Below are positions 29,146 to 36,496 of a DNA stretch of 61,556 nt, in pieces. The translations under genes were made by a program, and so were the position numbers. How positions within the stretch are numbered: position 1 is the stretch's first letter; each line of letters begins with the position of its first letter. The stretch is taken from the NCBI GenBank assembly GCA_022340665.1, contig JAJDNM010000027.1:1-61556 (forward strand), given 5' to 3'. Source of the stretch: Acidobacteriota bacterium (GTDB lineage Bacteria; Acidobacteriota; Thermoanaerobaculia; Thermoanaerobaculales; Sulfomarinibacteraceae). The notes beneath the pieces were generated by a model. The model did no database searches. It saw only the letters and a list, made by a program, of their open reading frames with translations, and was not told the DNA's origin.

Positions 29146-29574
29146 TTACCAGCTCTTACCGCGGATAATTTCTCGGATTCGCTCTTCGGTGTCCTGGTCC
29201 ACGAGAATCATTTTTTCTGCCTTGGCCTTGTGAATGATTTCGGAAAGCTTCGAGAAGTCGATCGGCTTCTCGAGAAACTCGAGTGCGCCCTGCTTCATCG
29301 CCTCGACACCCTTCTCCACCGTGGCGTGGCCGGTGAGCAGCACCACCTGGATATCGGGTCTGCGTTGCTTGATCCGCTCCAATACCTCGATGCCGTCCAT
29401 TCCGGGCATCTGGAGATCGAGAACCACGACGTCGAAAGAATCGCTGTCGATCAGATCGAGGGCATCTTTCCCGGAGTTGGAGGTGGACACCTCCATGCCA
29501 CGATTTCTCATCCGTTCCGCAAGCGTATCCACGAACTCCTCTTCGTCATCTACCAGTAACACCTTTTCCGTCAT
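29146..29574 (-). CDS. Stand-alone receiver-domain response regulator
   Basis: A 142-aa CheY-like receiver with a short C-terminal extension and no DNA-binding domain. The acidic pair is in LLVDDEEE, phospho-acceptor Asp53 in VVLDLQMPGMDG, Thr81 in LTGHA and Lys103 in EKPID. The extension (about residues 108-142, charged, helical) could dock a partner. It is the last gene of the seven-gene coupled operon and overlaps the preceding kinase-like gene by 4 bases. It is close in sequence to the receiver of the Cmk2-BON fusion. Confidence 0.92.
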   Translation of the reverse strand: MTEKVLLVDDEEEFVDTLAERMRNRGMEVSTSNSGKDALDLIDSDSFDVVVLDLQMPGMDGIEVLERIKQRRPDIQVVLLTGHATVEKGVEAMKQGALEFLEKPIDFSKLSEIIHKAKAEKMILVDQDTEERIREIIRGKSW

Positions 29575-30263
29575 GCTGTCCTCCCATGCGACAGACCCTC
29601 GGGATAGGGAACGTCGAGGTGCAAGGCCGTACCGTCCGGTTCGACCCTGTAGCTGGCCCCGAAAAAACCGAGGATCTCGGAAACACCATCCTGATTCGAC
29701 CCCGGTAAGTCGCTCGGTCCGGTCAAGCTTGAGAGACCGCTGAATGCCACCGTGAAGCCCCGGTTGGCATTTTCGACGGCGGCATATACGGTCCGGGCTC
29801 CCCCAACTCGCGCCAGGGCAAACTCGAATCCTCGCCCGATCAGACTTTCCAACATGAACGGGTTCGTCCGCACGGTTACGGGCTCGCCGGCATCCGAAAC
29901 CAGCAGCTCAGCCTCGGCCGTTTTCGCCTTTCTCGCATACAGCGCAGCCACCAGACCCAGAAGCTCGGTAACCTCGACTTCGGCAAGCTCTTCATCGGCG
30001 CTGTGCGCGAACCGATTGAGGCCGCGCACCACTTCCCTGGCCAGTGTTACCTGTTCCACGATTTTCTTGCTCTGCTCCTCGAAACGAACCGGGTCGACGT
30101 CCTTGCCGTGGGCCAGCATCGCCGCCAAATCCTGCAACAGGCCGGCTTTCTCGTTGATCACCGCGAGCCTGTTGTTGATCTCGTGACTGATGCCGGCGGA
30201 CACATCGCCGAAGAAGCGAATCTCCTCTCGGGCTATGGCCTGCCAGTCGGTGTTCGCCTTCAT
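29571..30263 (-). CDS. Degenerate histidine kinase-like protein (H box kept, ATPase motifs lost)
   Basis: A 230-aa soluble protein. The H box SHEINNRLAVINEKAGLLQ (His27) is nearly identical to that of the full kinase encoded two genes upstream (AHEINNPLAIINEKAGLIK), but the conserved Pro is Arg. The region where a HATPase domain should lie keeps the approximate length and fold-like spacing, yet lacks a clear N box, the DxGxG motif and the GTGLGL motif. It has no membrane segment. It may accept phosphate from or dimerise with the upstream kinase, or act as a phosphotransfer or phosphatase module (inference). It overlaps both flanking receivers by 4 bases. Confidence 0.82.
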   Translation of the reverse strand: MKANTDWQAIAREEIRFFGDVSAGISHEINNRLAVINEKAGLLQDLAAMLAHGKDVDPVRFEEQSKKIVEQVTLAREVVRGLNRFAHSADEELAEVEVTELLGLVAALYARKAKTAEAELLVSDAGEPVTVRTNPFMLESLIGRGFEFALARVGGARTVYAAVENANRGFTVAFSGLSSLTGPSDLPGSNQDGVSEILGFFGASYRVEPDGTALHLDVPYPEGLSHGRTA

Positions 30264-30613
30264 TGCGTTACCGCCTGTTCCATGGCTTCGATCAACAGAT
30301 CGATGTCGAGGGGTTTGGCGAGGTAGCGGGAAGCCTCGGCCGAACCGGCCTTGAAGTCTTCCTCGGACCCGTGTCCGGTGAGAAAGATGTACCGCATGTC
30401 GGGTCGCGCCTTCTCGAGTTTCTTCTTGAGCTCGATGCCGCTGAGATTCGGCATCTTCACATCGAGCACCGCTACGTCATACGGTTTTTCTGCGGCGAGC
30501 TCCAGCGCTCGTTTACCCGAGGTTGACCAATCGGCCTCTATGCCCCTGTAGGAGAGACGTTCAGCGAGAGCCGTGACCAGCTCTTCCTCGTCGTCAACCA
30601 GAAGTACCCTCAT
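30260..30613 (-). CDS. Single-domain receiver protein (CheY-like)
   Basis: A 117-aa receiver with acidic residues in LLVDDEEE, phospho-acceptor Asp51 in VLDVKMPNLSG, Thr79 in LTGHGSEED and Lys100 in AKPLD. There is no output domain. Its start overlaps the end of the dCache kinase gene by 20 bases and its end overlaps the degenerate kinase by 4, so it is made with both. It probably relays phosphate between the two kinase-like proteins or to the fusion protein of the same operon (inference). Confidence 0.92.
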   Translation of the reverse strand: MRVLLVDDEEELVTALAERLSYRGIEADWSTSGKRALELAAEKPYDVAVLDVKMPNLSGIELKKKLEKARPDMRYIFLTGHGSEEDFKAGSAEASRYLAKPLDIDLLIEAMEQAVTQ

Positions 30614-32375
30614 CTGTGGCTCCCTTCTCCTGAGGCTTGGCCAGAGGCAGAATGACGCGAAAACGTGTGCCTTTGCCAGGTTCGCTGTCCACCTCGATGC
30701 TGCCTCCCAGTTCCTGGGCCAGCGTATAGGTGATCGACAAACCGAGTCCGGTACCTCCGTGCTTGCTCTTGGTTGTATAAAACGGCTCGAACACCCGCGT
30801 GAGCTCGTGGTCGGTCATCCCGCAACCGTCGTCCTCAACCTCGATCGCGATCGAATCCGAAGACGGCTGACTGACCGATATCTCGATGTGTCCACCATCC
30901 TCGACCGCCGCAAATGCGTTGTTGATCAGGTTGAGGAGAATTTGCTGTAACTTGCCGCAATTCGTCTCGATCGCGGGAAGGTCTGGGTCGATGTCAATCG
31001 CGACCTCGATTGAACGATACTCCGCTTCCTTGCCCACGAATCCCAGAACCTCGGTAACCGTCTCCTCGAGGTCCACCAGTGTAGTCTCCTGGTCGGTGTC
31101 GCGGGCGAAGTTCAACAGTCTGCGCGTGATGTCCGAGCACCTTTTTACCGATGAGAGAATCGAATCCACGATATCCATCAGCTTCGGGTCGTCGGCATAA
31201 CGATCGGTATACGTGAAGAGGTCTTTGATGAGACCTGCCTTCTCATTGATGATTGCGAGCGGATTGTTGATCTCGTGGGCCACCCCGGCGCCGAGCCGAC
31301 CGAGAGATATCATCTTGTTCGCATACTCCACCTGATGAAGGGTGGCCAGGCGACGCAGATCTGCCAAGCGGATCCTGTTCACGAGATAGGTAGTGACTGC
31401 CAGCACGACCACCAGGATGCCGGAGATGCTGATCGCGAGAAAGCCGATAAGCTGTCGGCGCGCGTCGCGCCAGGGCTCCATCAACACCGCCTTCTGCTTG
31501 ACGATCATCAGGATGAACGGCGTCTGAGGGATGTTCGAATAGCCGATCAGTACGTCGTTTCCGTCCGGAGTCCCGGTCTCGTAGACCCGGGTCGACTCCG
31601 AGTACTCGGGCACCTCGAGGGATATCGTTTCGAGGACGTCGCCGTGCAGCCGAGAGGAGGTCTGCAGCACGCCCTCGCCATTGATGATAAACGCATCTCC
31701 GTTGCCGCTCAGTTCGAGATCGGCCAGCAAGGTATTGAAGAATTCCGCCTCGAGAGATGTTCGGAGCACATAGAAACCGCCGCCGGGTAGCTCGTGCCGT
31801 TCGGCAATCACCAGGTGGGGAACTTGCCGGAAGCCGGGGAATACGTCACTGATCTGCATATACCCGTGATCCCGCACACTCTGAAACCAATCCTGGTCAC
31901 TGTAGTTGACGCCAGCAAGATCGTACGGCCCCACATAACACGTTTGCCGGCCGGAAGAATCGATGACGCCGAGATCGACGAACCCACCGAAGCTCTGCCG
32001 CAGATGACTGAGAATCTCCTCGAGTCGAGCACAGTCGGTGAGTTCGCCGTACTCGTTGTCCTGGACTATGAAATCGAGCGCGGCAGTCCGTTCCAGCAGC
32101 GAGAAGGCTACCACCCGCTTCGTGTTCGATACGGTGCGAGACGTGCGAAGAAGGAACTCTGATTCGATTGACTGTTGCGTCACCCGGTAATCGGCCGCAG
32201 ACATCAAAAGCAGCGGCACGAGTGAAACGACGGTCATGATGAGGACCGTGATCTGCCACAGACGGCGCAAATTAAGGGAGTGTTGTTGTGGCGAGTCAGG
32301 GCCGCCCGGAGCACCCCAGGATGCGGGTCGTTTTCCCAGCTTCCAGCGCTGGTCGGATTGATCCAGCTTCTTCAC
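30594..32375 (-). CDS. dCache-type sensor histidine kinase
   Basis: A 593-aa membrane kinase. TM1 (about 39-60) and TM2 (about 309-332) enclose a roughly 245-residue periplasmic domain of the double-Cache type (VDLGVIDSSGRQTCYVGPYD and GDAFIINGEGVLQTSSRLHG are its two PAS-like cores). There is no HAMP. The HisKA H box is AHEINNPLAII (His367), then the N box LLNLINNAFAA, the G1 box VEDDGCGM and the G2 box GGTGLGLSI, all intact, so it should autophosphorylate. It is coupled to the Cmk2-BON-receiver gene by a 4-base overlap. The ligand is unknown; dCache domains often bind small carboxylates or amino acids. Confidence 0.92.
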   Translation of the reverse strand: MKKLDQSDQRWKLGKRPASWGAPGGPDSPQQHSLNLRRLWQITVLIMTVVSLVPLLLMSAADYRVTQQSIESEFLLRTSRTVSNTKRVVAFSLLERTAALDFIVQDNEYGELTDCARLEEILSHLRQSFGGFVDLGVIDSSGRQTCYVGPYDLAGVNYSDQDWFQSVRDHGYMQISDVFPGFRQVPHLVIAERHELPGGGFYVLRTSLEAEFFNTLLADLELSGNGDAFIINGEGVLQTSSRLHGDVLETISLEVPEYSESTRVYETGTPDGNDVLIGYSNIPQTPFILMIVKQKAVLMEPWRDARRQLIGFLAISISGILVVVLAVTTYLVNRIRLADLRRLATLHQVEYANKMISLGRLGAGVAHEINNPLAIINEKAGLIKDLFTYTDRYADDPKLMDIVDSILSSVKRCSDITRRLLNFARDTDQETTLVDLEETVTEVLGFVGKEAEYRSIEVAIDIDPDLPAIETNCGKLQQILLNLINNAFAAVEDGGHIEISVSQPSSDSIAIEVEDDGCGMTDHELTRVFEPFYTTKSKHGGTGLGLSITYTLAQELGGSIEVDSEPGKGTRFRVILPLAKPQEKGATDEGTSG

Positions 32376-33619
32376 CCGCTCCCGTCCGTCCGTGATTCGT
32401 CCCCACCACCGGAGGCACGCGCCTTTTCATTGGCCTGCCTCAGGGTTTCGCTGAGCGCTTCGATGTCGACCGGCTTGTGCAGGTAGGCGAACGCACCGAG
32501 CTCCATGCAGGTCTGCCGGTCCTCCTCGGAACCGTGGCCCGTGAGAATGATCACCTCGATGTGCGGGTGAGTCTGCTTCACGCGGCGCAGCACCTCGATC
32601 CCGTCGATGCCCGGCATCCGCAAGTCGAGGATGATGACGTCCGGCTCGTCATCCTCCACCATCTTCAGGGCTGATTCGCCGTCATATGCCACGGCCGAAC
32701 CGACATCCCGCATTTCAAGACGTTCGGAGAGCGTCTGCACGAACTCTCGTTCGTCGTCGACGAGCAACACCCTCGACGGTTCCTTGAAGTCCATTTTGCG
32801 ATAAATGTCCGGCTTGTAGAAGTCCTTCCCGACACGGGTTTCCACCGAGCGAACCCCCTCGACCGGCGCTGCGATTGCCTTGAGCTCGTCCTCGAGCCGG
32901 CCGAGCATGAGAACGTTCTTGTTGATGGTAAGGGTCACCGCTCCATCGGAGCACTCGACATCAACGTAATGGCCCTTCTCGGCGAGCGCTCGCTCGACGC
33001 GGGCTGCCACGAAGAAGTCCTCGGCTGCCTTCTTCGAAGACGGCGTCACTTGAACGACATCTTTTTGCAGGCTGCCTACGATCAGATCGACGGCCGCATC
33101 CAGGTCCGTCTTGTCGGTCGGAATCAGCACATCGTAAAGATCCGGATTCCAGGGATCTTGCGAACCCGCCACAGCCAGTACCCAGGCCGTCGCCTTCTCG
33201 TCCCTCCGGCGGACCAACTTGCCGGCCTCCTTTTGCTTGAGGTCCTGTTCTGCAACAGCCCGGTCGATGCGCGCCGCCATGTCGGCGATCAGACACACCT
33301 GAAGAGCGTGGGTGATCGTCCGTGGGATCAGGTGACTGCAAAATCCTTCCAACACCAACTCGTCATCGAGAAGCCGCTCCGCAACCGCGTAGCGGAGGTT
33401 GGCGATGGATCGCTCCGGTTCCCCAGTGAAGCTGTTGAAAACCGATGATTTCGCCGATAGCGATCGCACGAGCTTCTCTTGCGACACGCCGGAAAGCTCA
33501 CTCGCTCGTCGGACGATCTCTTCATCCGCAACGTGCACGAAGCCGGTGCGCTCGAGCAGCAAGGGAACAATTGCTTCCGCTTGGCAGAAACTCCCACTGA
33601 ACACCGAAATGATCGACAT
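32372..33619 (-). CDS. Cytidylate-kinase-like / BON / receiver fusion protein
   Basis: A 415-aa protein with an unusual architecture. Residues 1-185 match the cytidylate kinase-like (Cmk2/AAK_33) family: VHVADEEIVRRASELSG, RYAVAERLL, LIADMAARIDRAV and VRRRDEKATAWV with DPWNPDLYDVLI. The first loop reads SGSFCQAEAIV, not the usual glycine-rich nucleotide loop, so catalysis is doubtful. Residues about 200-268 look like a BON domain. Residues 283-398 are a complete receiver (Asp332 in LDLRMPGIDG, Thr360, Lys382). I start at the ATG at 33619, which shares one base with the SulP stop; the longer frame would lie inside sulP. Its place beside sulP suggests phospho-dependent control of the transporter (inference). 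Confidence 0.85.
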   Translation of the reverse strand: MSIISVFSGSFCQAEAIVPLLLERTGFVHVADEEIVRRASELSGVSQEKLVRSLSAKSSVFNSFTGEPERSIANLRYAVAERLLDDELVLEGFCSHLIPRTITHALQVCLIADMAARIDRAVAEQDLKQKEAGKLVRRRDEKATAWVLAVAGSQDPWNPDLYDVLIPTDKTDLDAAVDLIVGSLQKDVVQVTPSSKKAAEDFFVAARVERALAEKGHYVDVECSDGAVTLTINKNVLMLGRLEDELKAIAAPVEGVRSVETRVGKDFYKPDIYRKMDFKEPSRVLLVDDEREFVQTLSERLEMRDVGSAVAYDGESALKMVEDDEPDVIILDLRMPGIDGIEVLRRVKQTHPHIEVIILTGHGSEEDRQTCMELGAFAYLHKPVDIEALSETLRQANEKARASGGGDESRTDGSG

Positions 33620-35859
33620 CAGGGACCCCCGTCCAGAACCTTGATTTGACCCGCGCGGCCGGTTGTCGTCAACGGGCACGGCTCCTCTTCTCCCTCATTA
33701 TGGGCATGAGCGTGAACCGCCCGAATGGCCTGTTCCATGGTTGGGTAGATGTGGTCGCGACCGATTCGCTCTATCAGGAAGGTCCGCTCCAGGACATCCA
33801 TGACAGACTCGTTAACGCCACTGAACGAGATGTCGACGCCGGCAGTTCGGACCCTGTCGACGAGCAGAGAAAGCGTCTCTTCGCCGGACGCATCGATATC
33901 GCTGATCGCGTTGCTCACGATGATGATGTGCCTCAAGTCTTGTTTCGCCTGCATGCGCTCGTTGATCTTGTCCTCGAGGTAACTCGCGTTGGCGAAGAAG
34001 AGCGGCCCGTCGAATCGGACGACGTCCATGAATCGGCACTCCTCGAGACCGTGTGTTTGTGCGGCCCGCAACGAATCGTCCTCGTGGCGGGAAAGGCTGA
34101 TGACCGTGGGCCGCATGCTCTTGTAGAGGAAGACCGCCACCGAAAGCACGACACCGATCATGATTCCCTTGTCGAGATGTGGGGCGAAGGCAAGAGTCGC
34201 GACGAATGATGTCACCGAGATGATGCCGTCATACCTCTTGGCCTTCCAGGCATGCACGAATCCTGTGACGTTCACCAGCCCGATGACCGCCATCATGATG
34301 ACCGAGGCAAGGACGGCCTGCGGCAGGTGATAGAGCAGAGGCGTAAAAAACAGGAGAACGATGACTACCGTGAAGCTGGTGATCACGCTCGAGAGACCGG
34401 TCTTGCCGCCGGCCTGGAGGTTGACTGCGCTGCGGGAGAAACTTCCCGAGACAGGATAGCTCTGACCGACTGAACCCACCATGTTGGCGAGGCCCTGGCC
34501 GATGAGCTCCTGGTTCGGATCCAGCCGCTGGCCGGTTTTTGCAGCCATCGCCTTGGCGATCGAGATCGCCTCCATGAAGCCGAGCAGGGAAATGATGACC
34601 GTCGCGGTGAGCAGCTTTGGAATGACATTCATGTCCAGCCGAGGTGCCTTGGCCGACGGCAGGCCGCGCGGGATCACGCCGACAACGTTGCCCCCGCCGA
34701 TCATCAACAGGGCATCCGGATCGAGCGGATTGTTGCCGACCTTCAAACGCCAATGGCGACCGTCGGTGGGGCTCCCCTCGGGCAACAGCGCCTGCTCGTA
34801 AAACCTCCCTTGGTTGCCATCTGGAACCCTGGCAAAGACCATCGAGCGCAGCTCCGAACGCAGGGAGGAGATCTCCTCCTTGATCTCCGCGGCGTGCACG
34901 TCGAGCACACCCGCCATATGATGAAGGGCGAGTGTCCTCCCTTCGATTCCGAGATCATCGCGCGCGCCAGGGGCCAACACGAGCGCTTCGGGCTCCCGCG
35001 GTCCGTGGCAGCGCTGGCATTGACTGTCGATCGCTTTGGTTTCGATTTCACTGCTGAGGGATCCCGCGTTCGACCTCACCTCATTCACTCTTTTTTGGAG
35101 GTCCACGGCGAAATTGAATTCCTCGACCAGACTTTCGAGCCGAGAAGACTCGATGTCCGGCACCGCCACCACCTCGTTGTGCTCGAAGTGAAACACCGCC
35201 GAAAGCGCGGTGGTCACGACCACCGCAATCAGAACGTTTGGAATCCGCGGATTGATTCGTCGCAGGCCCATCATGATGGCAAATGCCAGCACGGCCATGG
35301 CCAGGGTCGGCAGATGCGTCCATTCGATCGCGGCTGCCACCGTCCGCGCCACCGTTTCGTAATGGTGCTCCGCCTTTTCCACGCTGACGCCGAAAATCTT
35401 GTCGAGCTGTGAGGTCGCGATAATGATGGCGGCCGCGTTGGTGAAACCGTTGACCACGGGGTGCGAGAGGAAGTTGACCACCACGCCGAGGCGAAGGACA
35501 CCCAGCAGGAACTGGAACAGCCCGACGAGCAGGGCGAGGAGCACGGCGTACTCGATGTACTCGACGCTGCCAGCGGTGGCCAGCGGTTCGAGGGTGGCGG
35601 ATGTCATCAGCGAAACGACTGCAACCGGTCCCGTCGCCAGCTGACGGCTGGAACCGAAGAGCGCAGCCACCATCGGCGGAAGGAACGAGGCGTACAGACC
35701 GAAATGTGGCGGCAGTCCTGCCAGCTGCGCGTATGCCATGCTCTGCGGAATCAACACCAGTGCAACGGTCAAACCGGACAGGAGATCGTCCTTCACCGTC
35801 GACAAGTTGGATTCCTTGATCCACAACAAAAAGGGCAGGATCATTATCAGGACGCGCAC
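33619..35859 (-). CDS. SulP-family anion transporter with periplasmic CxxCH insertion and STAS domain
   Basis: A 746-aa SLC26/SulP carrier, well above the 550-600 residues usual in bacteria. The N-terminal core (SGLTVALVLIPQSMAYAQLA, ATGPVAVVSLMT) is normal through TM7 (208-225). A roughly 155-residue insertion (about 232-388) follows, with a heme-c motif CQRCH at 281-285 and a helical, charged segment. The family sequence then resumes at VVGVIPRGLPSAKAP. A STAS domain fills about 585-715. In the 7+7 topology the TM7-TM8 loop faces the periplasm, where heme c can be attached. The substrate (sulfate, bicarbonate or another anion) is not decided by sequence. The gene is 3 bases after tetR. Confidence 0.9.
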   Translation of the reverse strand: MRVLIMILPFLLWIKESNLSTVKDDLLSGLTVALVLIPQSMAYAQLAGLPPHFGLYASFLPPMVAALFGSSRQLATGPVAVVSLMTSATLEPLATAGSVEYIEYAVLLALLVGLFQFLLGVLRLGVVVNFLSHPVVNGFTNAAAIIIATSQLDKIFGVSVEKAEHHYETVARTVAAAIEWTHLPTLAMAVLAFAIMMGLRRINPRIPNVLIAVVVTTALSAVFHFEHNEVVAVPDIESSRLESLVEEFNFAVDLQKRVNEVRSNAGSLSSEIETKAIDSQCQRCHGPREPEALVLAPGARDDLGIEGRTLALHHMAGVLDVHAAEIKEEISSLRSELRSMVFARVPDGNQGRFYEQALLPEGSPTDGRHWRLKVGNNPLDPDALLMIGGGNVVGVIPRGLPSAKAPRLDMNVIPKLLTATVIISLLGFMEAISIAKAMAAKTGQRLDPNQELIGQGLANMVGSVGQSYPVSGSFSRSAVNLQAGGKTGLSSVITSFTVVIVLLFFTPLLYHLPQAVLASVIMMAVIGLVNVTGFVHAWKAKRYDGIISVTSFVATLAFAPHLDKGIMIGVVLSVAVFLYKSMRPTVISLSRHEDDSLRAAQTHGLEECRFMDVVRFDGPLFFANASYLEDKINERMQAKQDLRHIIIVSNAISDIDASGEETLSLLVDRVRTAGVDISFSGVNESVMDVLERTFLIERIGRDHIYPTMEQAIRAVHAHAHNEGEEEPCPLTTTGRAGQIKVLDGGP

Positions 35860-35862
35860 GAC

Positions 35863-36459
35863 CTACCCCCCCACCCGTTCCGCCTGAACCAACCTTCGAA
35901 CGCCCTCGAGGAAATCTTCGATTAACGAGTCTGCATCGTAAAGGTTGTAGTTCTTCAGCCGGACCAATCCGTCAATCATCATGTACACGAGTAGGGCGGT
36001 TTTGTGCACCGGCAGCTCCCCCATCGTTCCATCGTTTTGTCCGCGTTCAATCGCGTTTTCGAACGCTTTCACGATTCGGTCATAGATTGTCTCCAAAAGA
36101 GCACGAAACTCCTCATTACCTTTGGCCAAGTCATACGCGTGATGCCTGTGAAGAAGCATGAACTGAGCTTCGTTGTCCGCAGCCAGCCGCAAATAGAACG
36201 CCACCAGTTTTTCGAGAGTTTCGATACCCGAAAGGTCCCCGGTCGAAGGCAGGAACTCTTCGAAAGCGTTGTCGATACGATCCTTCGCGTCTTTCAGCGC
36301 CGCCAGAAACAGCTTCTCCTTGCTTTCAAAGTGATAAAAAACGGTCCCTTCCGCCGACTCCGTCATCCGCGCCACTTCAGTTGTCGATGTCTCCTGATAA
36401 CCCTTGGTGGAAAAGAGCCATGTGGCGGCTTCGAGGATTGCTGCTCGCTTGGACTTCAC
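35863..36459 (-). CDS. TetR-family regulator heading the SulP/two-component operon
   Basis: A 198-aa regulator with a typical N-terminal HTH (KRAAILEAATWLFSTKGY, EGTVFYHFESKEKLF) and a helical ligand-binding half (TetR_C-like, with HRHHAYDLAKGNEEF). It is the first of seven genes that are overlapping or 3 bases apart down to 29146. A perfect 20-bp palindrome lies 18 bases before its start at the likely transcription start site, so autoregulation of the whole operon is the simplest reading. The effector is unknown. Confidence 0.92.
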   Translation of the reverse strand: MKSKRAAILEAATWLFSTKGYQETSTTEVARMTESAEGTVFYHFESKEKLFLAALKDAKDRIDNAFEEFLPSTGDLSGIETLEKLVAFYLRLAADNEAQFMLLHRHHAYDLAKGNEEFRALLETIYDRIVKAFENAIERGQNDGTMGELPVHKTALLVYMMIDGLVRLKNYNLYDADSLIEDFLEGVRRLVQAERVGG

Positions 36460-36476: not shown

Positions 36477-36496
36477 CTGACTGAGTACTCAGTCAG
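36477..36496. promoter_or_regulatory. Perfect palindromic TetR operator
   Basis: The 20-bp sequence CTGACTGAGTACTCAGTCAG is identical to its reverse complement. It begins right after the -10 box and covers the expected +1, so a bound repressor would block initiation. Confidence 0.8.

Follow-up and report, generated by a model that had tools for sequence, protein, structure and literature searches.

Known systems and the locus

In 2025, a sulP cluster was described in the Desulfobacteraceae, in which the permease SulP is accompanied by two-component genes and a Cache histidine kinase, with a TetR repressor and a palindromic operator just upstream (PMC11887813, Sci Adv 2025). In the main text of that study the regulators are called WalR type, the cluster is reported from Desulfobacteraceae and Dv. 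salexigens, and APS (adenosine 5′-phosphosulfate), sulfate or sulfide are only speculated on as internal signals, APS being suggested for the CBS proteins of the DASS cluster. Here, an operon of the same layout is described from an Acidobacteriota bacterium (Sulfomarinibacteraceae; GenBank assembly GCA_022340665.1, contig JAJDNM010000027.1), within a stretch of 61,556 nucleotides (nt) referred to as the window. Our subject is the gene behind its SulP permease, at 33619–32372 on the minus strand, which encodes a Cmk2-BON-receiver protein, named CBR.

The window operon holds every element of the 2025 cluster, namely SulP, the Cache kinase, receiver genes, TetR and the upstream palindrome, whereas it differs from that account in extending to Acidobacteriota and Nitrospirota, and in the recognition of the Cmk2-BON part. 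The SulP/TetR/two-component cluster itself is known, but the Cmk2-BON part is absent from the main text of PMC11887813, which contains none of the terms cytidylate, Cmk, BON or heme. The accessible text of a 2018 survey of sulfate transporters (PMC5840216) likewise lacks cytidylate, CBS, histidine kinase and TetR, with “bon” matched twice, both times in the reference list. No paper linking a cytidylate kinase to sulfate was found, in a literature lacking most subscription journals. With confidence that stands about evenly balanced, we propose that CBR serves the SulP sulfate importer of dissimilatory sulfate reducers as an atypical response regulator, a partner of pseudokinase type whose state is switched by phosphorylation.

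Architecture of CBR

CBR comprises 415 residues, with an ATG start at 33619 and a stop codon at 32374–32372. An earlier note, made from the letters of this stretch, had described a Cmk2-type domain with an altered nucleotide loop, a BON domain and a receiver, and this description was confirmed, with the corrections given below and with its coordinates exact. CBR reads as a three-part signalling protein, formed from an apparently dead nucleotide-kinase fold, a small BON-like domain and a phosphorylation switch. No membrane segment was predicted in it.

The Cmk2-like P-loop-kinase fold occupies residues 1–187 (33059–33619, minus strand). Cytidylate_kin2 (PF13189) scores 66.6 bits in CBR against a gathering cut-off of 28, and is matched at E≤1 by 62/62 relatives, which bears out the Cmk2 assignment of the note. 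An AlphaFold2 model of the whole protein, built from 78 sequences, gave a mean pLDDT (predicted local distance difference test) of 87.3, and the match list of its fold search was filled by receivers. Because of this dominance a second model was made from residues 1–277 only, covering Cmk2 and BON (pLDDT 90.6), and its list was filled by Cmk2 structures: 3hdt_A (Z 19.1, root-mean-square deviation 2.1, 164 aligned) and 3fdi_A (Z 18.6, deviation 1.9, 159 aligned), both uncharacterised Cytidylate_kin2 structures of the same fold. True CMP (cytidine monophosphate) kinases rank after these (2h92 and 7l4a, both Z 14.4; 1kdo, Z 13.8). Whereas 3hdt retains an SGG-type loop, CBR has lost it, and has gained the BON-like and receiver parts.

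The receiver spans residues 284–393 (32441–32770, minus strand), with Asp332 as phospho-acceptor, and scores 106.5 bits for Response_reg (PF00072) against a cut-off of 30.2. From 127 relatives found in a genome scan 80 orthologues were retained, and an alignment of 83 rows was assembled from the window CBR, these orthologues and two proteins from the same genus; unless stated otherwise, counts out of 83 refer to it. The receiver is present in all 80 orthologues, and D288, D289 and D332 are found in 83/83 rows, with T360 and K382 in 81/81 of those reaching that far, so that the full set of catalytic residues announced by the note is upheld throughout the class. It is also the most conserved part of CBR, at ~63–85% identity versus 43–55% for Cmk2-BON, a contrast that would suit CBR being merely a phosphate sink or relay member, with Cmk2-BON a relic scaffold of no function at the transporter. 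This we consider quite improbable, as the Cmk2-BON part is kept at full length, stands before the receiver in 80/80 loci and carries many invariant residues (A39, F61, N62, H104, R117, W157, D163 and G216; His104 is counted in 83/83 rows, and Arg117 and His217 each in 82/83).

The middle part, residues 192–266 (32822–33046, minus strand), includes Gly216-His217 and is less readily named. The note had called it a BON domain; Pfam calls no BON (PF04972) in CBR, although BON appears at E≤1 in 17/62 relatives (best E 0.0016). In the model of residues 1–277 the order is helix-strand-strand-helix-strand, which is that of BON. In profile comparison to BON repeats, a mixed Cmk2-BON alignment reached a probability of 94 (E 1.3e-7), versus 55 for the receiver type alone. 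The mixed profile also matches OsmY (8rjx, E 5.3e-9), whereas a PDB profile search restricted to the BON part of the receiver type returned no BON chain. One of the sibling Cmk2-BON proteins described below (L152:5411-6220) lies above the Pfam cut-off for BON, at 35.0 versus 27 bits. The name thus stands in a weakened form: the domain is best termed divergent and BON-like, its sequence support being indirect.

The altered nucleotide loop

The loop of CBR reads SGSFCQAE (residues 8–15, 33575–33598, minus strand) and includes Cys12. A Walker-type GK at positions 14–15 is found in 0/83 rows; in its place the receiver-fused class keeps a motif of its own, [FV][SN][GA]x[FY]C. Position 12 is Cys in 74 rows, Ser in 8 and Ala in 1, while positions 13–15 are mostly N/K/E, E/K/A and E/D, and the SGG-type loop of stand-alone Cytidylate_kin2 proteins is absent from CBR. 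The altered loop is hence no local oddity of the window: aligned across the receiver fusions it is conserved, as a different motif and one unlikely to be active. In six loci (L120, L122, L126, L129, L130 and L132) the loop reads G-A-x-F-S-N-[KT]-[SA], mostly placing Lys-Ser near the Walker position with the preceding glycine missing.

How much has been lost depends on the comparator. The Walker A motif of CMP kinases is GxxxxGK[ST], which CBR lacks, and a cmk-like protein of the same genome (L007) has the loop GPAGAGKST. However, the stand-alone Cmk2 proteins of this genome have the loops SREAGSGG and SRLSGAGG, already without the Walker lysine, and for this reason comparison with the canonical loop, which the note had taken as its expectation, overstates what CBR lost. 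With the Cmk2-BON siblings of CBR as reference, a glycine and a lysine have indeed gone from the loop: the sibling loops are mostly SRGSxSGG or SRGSYSRGKE, versus FSGSFCQAE and variants in the receiver-fused class, and among 32 sampled siblings an SGG or GK loop is present in 27, Gly14 in 28, Ser12 in 23 and Arg109 in 26.

In a tree of 55 rows, from which the sibling L188 was left out, a 100/100 branch sets apart the 21 sampled receiver-type proteins together with the long-branch row L189b, and a 100/96 branch joins this side to the group holding SRGSYSRGKE. Three receiver-type rows outside the main tree group keep the loop glycine (FCRGRE, FCHGPE and FCRGEE). Loss of the loop was apparently stepwise and close to the receiver fusion, with the new motif retained afterwards, and this history suggests changed function rather than decay.

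The CMP-kinase fold would fit an alternative in which CBR is a working nucleotide kinase whose loop has changed and whose activity is set by phosphorylation, and since the Walker lysine is missing from the stand-alone Cmk2 proteins as well, its absence alone proves little. However, the loop glycines are gone too and GK is missing from all 83 rows; with the loop lost across the clade, an active CMP kinase was set aside as scarcely probable. The Cmk2 part is probably neither ATP-binding nor phosphorylating. The suggestion in the note of nucleotide or phosphate sensing by CBR is not supported, because no receiver-type protein keeps GK at the loop; such sensing may occur in siblings whose loop is intact, and is less likely in CBR. 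The segment given in the note as R-x-x-RDE is not strictly of that form, its letters being R137 R138 R139 D140 E141, and conservation does not extend to its arginines: position 137 is most often His (39/83), and D140 is kept in 77/83. Loss of the LID arginine was also considered as a mark of the clade and rejected, Arg143 being present in 37/83.

Cys109 is found in 82/83 rows, and occurs together with Cys12 in 73/83. As this pair marks the receiver-fused class, siblings mostly having Ser12 and Arg109, the cysteine of the vacated loop and Cys109 might form a thiol, metal or sulfide-sensing site, through which CBR would report redox or sulfide state to the transporter. We regard this as very doubtful, given the Ser and Ala residues that replace Cys12 in nine rows.

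The SulP operon

The operon runs in the order TetR, SulP, CBR, Cache histidine kinase, receiver, phosphotransferase-like protein, receiver, all on the minus strand. SulP (33619–35859), an SLC26-type sulfate permease with a STAS domain and a long loop insert (PF00916, PF01740; TIGR00815 over cut-off), has a stop codon that overlaps the CBR ATG (TGATG). It lies upstream of CBR on the same strand in 75/80 loci, with a median gap of 19 nt (range −29 to 209 nt; ≤60 nt in 63/75), and in two others (L123 and L124) CBR is too close to the contig end to show it. The tie to a transporter drawn in the note is thereby supported, as is the link to phosphorylation, since next to the intact receiver of CBR is encoded the Cache-domain histidine kinase (30594–32375; dCache_1, HisKA and HATPase_c), whose start overlaps the CBR stop.

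Three further genes complete the two-component set. A stand-alone receiver of 117 residues (30260–30613; PF00072) has Asp51 in 59/59 sequences, and another of 142 residues (29146–29574; PF00072) has Asp53 in 56/56. Between them lies a histidine phosphotransferase-like protein of 230 residues (29571–30263), which resembles the His-bearing part of a kinase, and in which Pfam calls no ATPase domain; by this description it may be likened to the phosphotransferases ChpT and Spo0B. His27 and His87 are both invariant in it (61/61), the second histidine, His87, being without obvious role. Pfam calls no DNA-binding domain in any of the three receiver proteins, CBR included, and this speaks for an output other than transcription.

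Among the 80 loci, of which many lie on short contigs and several are cut, the histidine kinase was counted in 70, the 142-residue receiver in 66, the phosphotransferase-like protein in 64, the 117-residue receiver in 58 and TetR in 53. Adjoining genes of the window operon (29146–36459) overlap at most junctions, suggesting translational coupling.

The TetR-family repressor (35863–36459; PF00440) is the first gene of the operon. Upstream of it, at 36477–36496 and assigned to neither strand, lies a perfect palindrome of 20 base pairs, CTGACTGAGT/ACTCAGTCAG, the core of which, CTGAGNNCTCAG, has 25 matches in the 1,069,779 bases that make up the 80 loci, and lies within 120 nt upstream of tetR in 24/53 scored regions. 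This is a probable operator, consistent with that reported for Desulfobacteraceae (PMC11887813).

The loop insert of the window SulP, at about residues 240–388, comprises ~150 residues and contains a CxxCH heme-c motif (SQCQRCH). It is present in part in most SulP orthologues, and the plain CxxCH pattern in only 2/71, such that a heme-bearing SulP as the common mechanism was rejected; the motif in the window insert might reflect a permease that senses redox state, confined to a single branch of the Acidobacteriota.

Distribution and dissimilatory sulfate reduction

The genome of the window has dsrA at 571 bits (cut-off 392.85) and aprA at 888 bits (cut-off 641.75), and its bearer is most likely a sulfate reducer of the Acidobacteriota. 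In 49 genomes carrying CBR, which stem from 50 of the 80 loci with L064 left out, dsrA was found in 46, over the cut-off in 44; CBR carriers are mostly sulfate reducers. Four of the five genomes with a receiver-type protein in the window's family have dsrA, while G018, of the same genus as the window, has CBR and no dsrA call in a genome 83% complete.

Among 198 Acidobacteriota genomes surveyed by profile (Cmk2-BON E≤1e-25, dsrA E≤1e-60), Cmk2-BON was found in 14 and dsrA in 20, with all 14 among the 20. The profile is thus present in 14/20 genomes with dsrA versus 0/178 of the others, a difference for which Fisher’s p of 3.8e-17 is descriptive only, the genomes being related. A universal tie between Cmk2-BON and dsrA was rejected, as most Nitrospirota genomes with dsrA are without the module and G018 has CBR without a dsrA call.

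Sibling Cmk2-BON proteins

CBR is not alone in its genome, which has seven Cytidylate_kin2 matches. Among them, a Cmk2-BON-CBS protein has a neighbour from the Na/sulfate symporter family, and another Cmk2-BON adjoins a DASS-type gene with TrkA_C. These, like their counterparts in other genomes, share the core of CBR and likewise adjoin an anion transporter, but the DASS-linked siblings have a CBS pair or nothing where CBR has its receiver.

In other Acidobacteriota, a plain Cmk2-BON gene (L150:14574-15389) is found in a dsr cluster, starting 24 nt behind dsrP, two more (L152:4592-6217) lie behind qmoC and sat, and Cmk2-BON is found by TauE genes at L148 and, by resemblance, at L151. Of 13 Desulfobacterota regions, six have a transporter beside Cmk2-BON: DASS/TrkA at L189, L190 and L194, TauE at L191 and L195, and a second SulP at L188. 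in L186 a Cmk2-BON closes the CBR operon, with a DASS gene on the opposite strand ~3 kb off, L197 is a broken CBR locus, and L185, L187, L192, L193 and L196 have no transporter near Cmk2-BON, so that the idea of a transporter beside every Cmk2-BON was rejected. Two C-terminal membrane segments were predicted in each of the siblings L151b, L009b, L148d and L195, and one in L191, and these five group together in the tree.

The position of sibling genes directly behind sat (L152) and dsrP (L150), and the residues common to receiver-type and sibling proteins (Gly92, Arg117, Asp140, Trp146 and Asp163), invite the view that the acceptor half of the Cmk2 pocket of CBR still accommodates a sulfate-activation ligand (APS, AMP or sulfite), with receiver phosphorylation as a second input, making a two-signal sensor; the speculation that links APS to the CBS proteins encoded in the DASS cluster (PMC11887813) points the same way. 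However, the receiver clade has lost the loop and has Cys in place of Arg109 (Cys in 21/21 sampled rows, Arg in 26/32 siblings), and we judge this unlikely.

A wider reading, which we offer tentatively and hold at somewhat less than even confidence, is that Cmk2-BON serves dissimilatory sulfate metabolism as a control module so far unrecognised, coupled by its different fusions (a receiver, a CBS pair, a membrane anchor or none) to sulfur-anion transporters of the SulP, DASS and TauE families and to the sat/dsr clusters. The kinase pocket of the plain and CBS forms would detect a sulfate-activation metabolite, whereas the receiver form, having abandoned the loop, would put the same output under phosphorylation.

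Proposed role of CBR

From the architecture, loop loss, conserved operon, intact receiver and kinase, and dsrA co-occurrence in most carriers, all directly observed, we infer a ligand, a contact partner and a direction of control for CBR as a phosphorylation-switched partner of SulP. The Cache kinase would respond to a signal in the periplasm, either sulfate or some other small anion, and would phosphorylate CBR. In phosphorylated CBR, the contact of Cmk2-BON with SulP, for which the cytosolic STAS domain is the obvious candidate, or with a small ligand, would be altered, the Cmk2 part acting jointly with the BON-like part as a binding or structural module. Through the changed contact, sulfate uptake would then be adjusted independently of transcription. 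The phosphotransferase-like protein would form, with the two free receivers, a branch of the same relay, and TetR would control transcription via the palindrome. Such an arrangement resembles the pairs SbtA-SbtB and AmtB-GlnK, in which a soluble, signal-controlled protein is co-encoded with one membrane transporter; their folds are unrelated to that of CBR, and the direct binding known in those pairs is, for CBR, a putative one.

Several points weigh against this proposal. An operon does not prove a complex of CBR with SulP, and sulfate as the substrate of the window SulP is a prediction. CBR is found without SulP upstream in three loci (L082, L119 and L131). Since Lys is present at position 14 in 20/83 rows and at position 15 in 7/83, and Arg143 is retained in 37/83, some receiver-type members may have kept nucleotide binding by a different mode. 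Among 148 genomes of Nitrospirota, the Cmk2-BON profile was found in 7 and dsrA in 71, with 6 shared, and dsrA in 6/7 genomes with the profile versus 65/141 without it is not a significant difference (p 0.055).

On balance, CBR probably helps to tune sulfate uptake. The Acidobacteriota survey suggests that Cmk2-BON could be of use as a genomic marker for dissimilatory sulfate metabolism, if not a universal one. For the study of how sulfate reducers regulate their sulfate uptake, CBR, tied by gene order to the importer, provides a concrete target.

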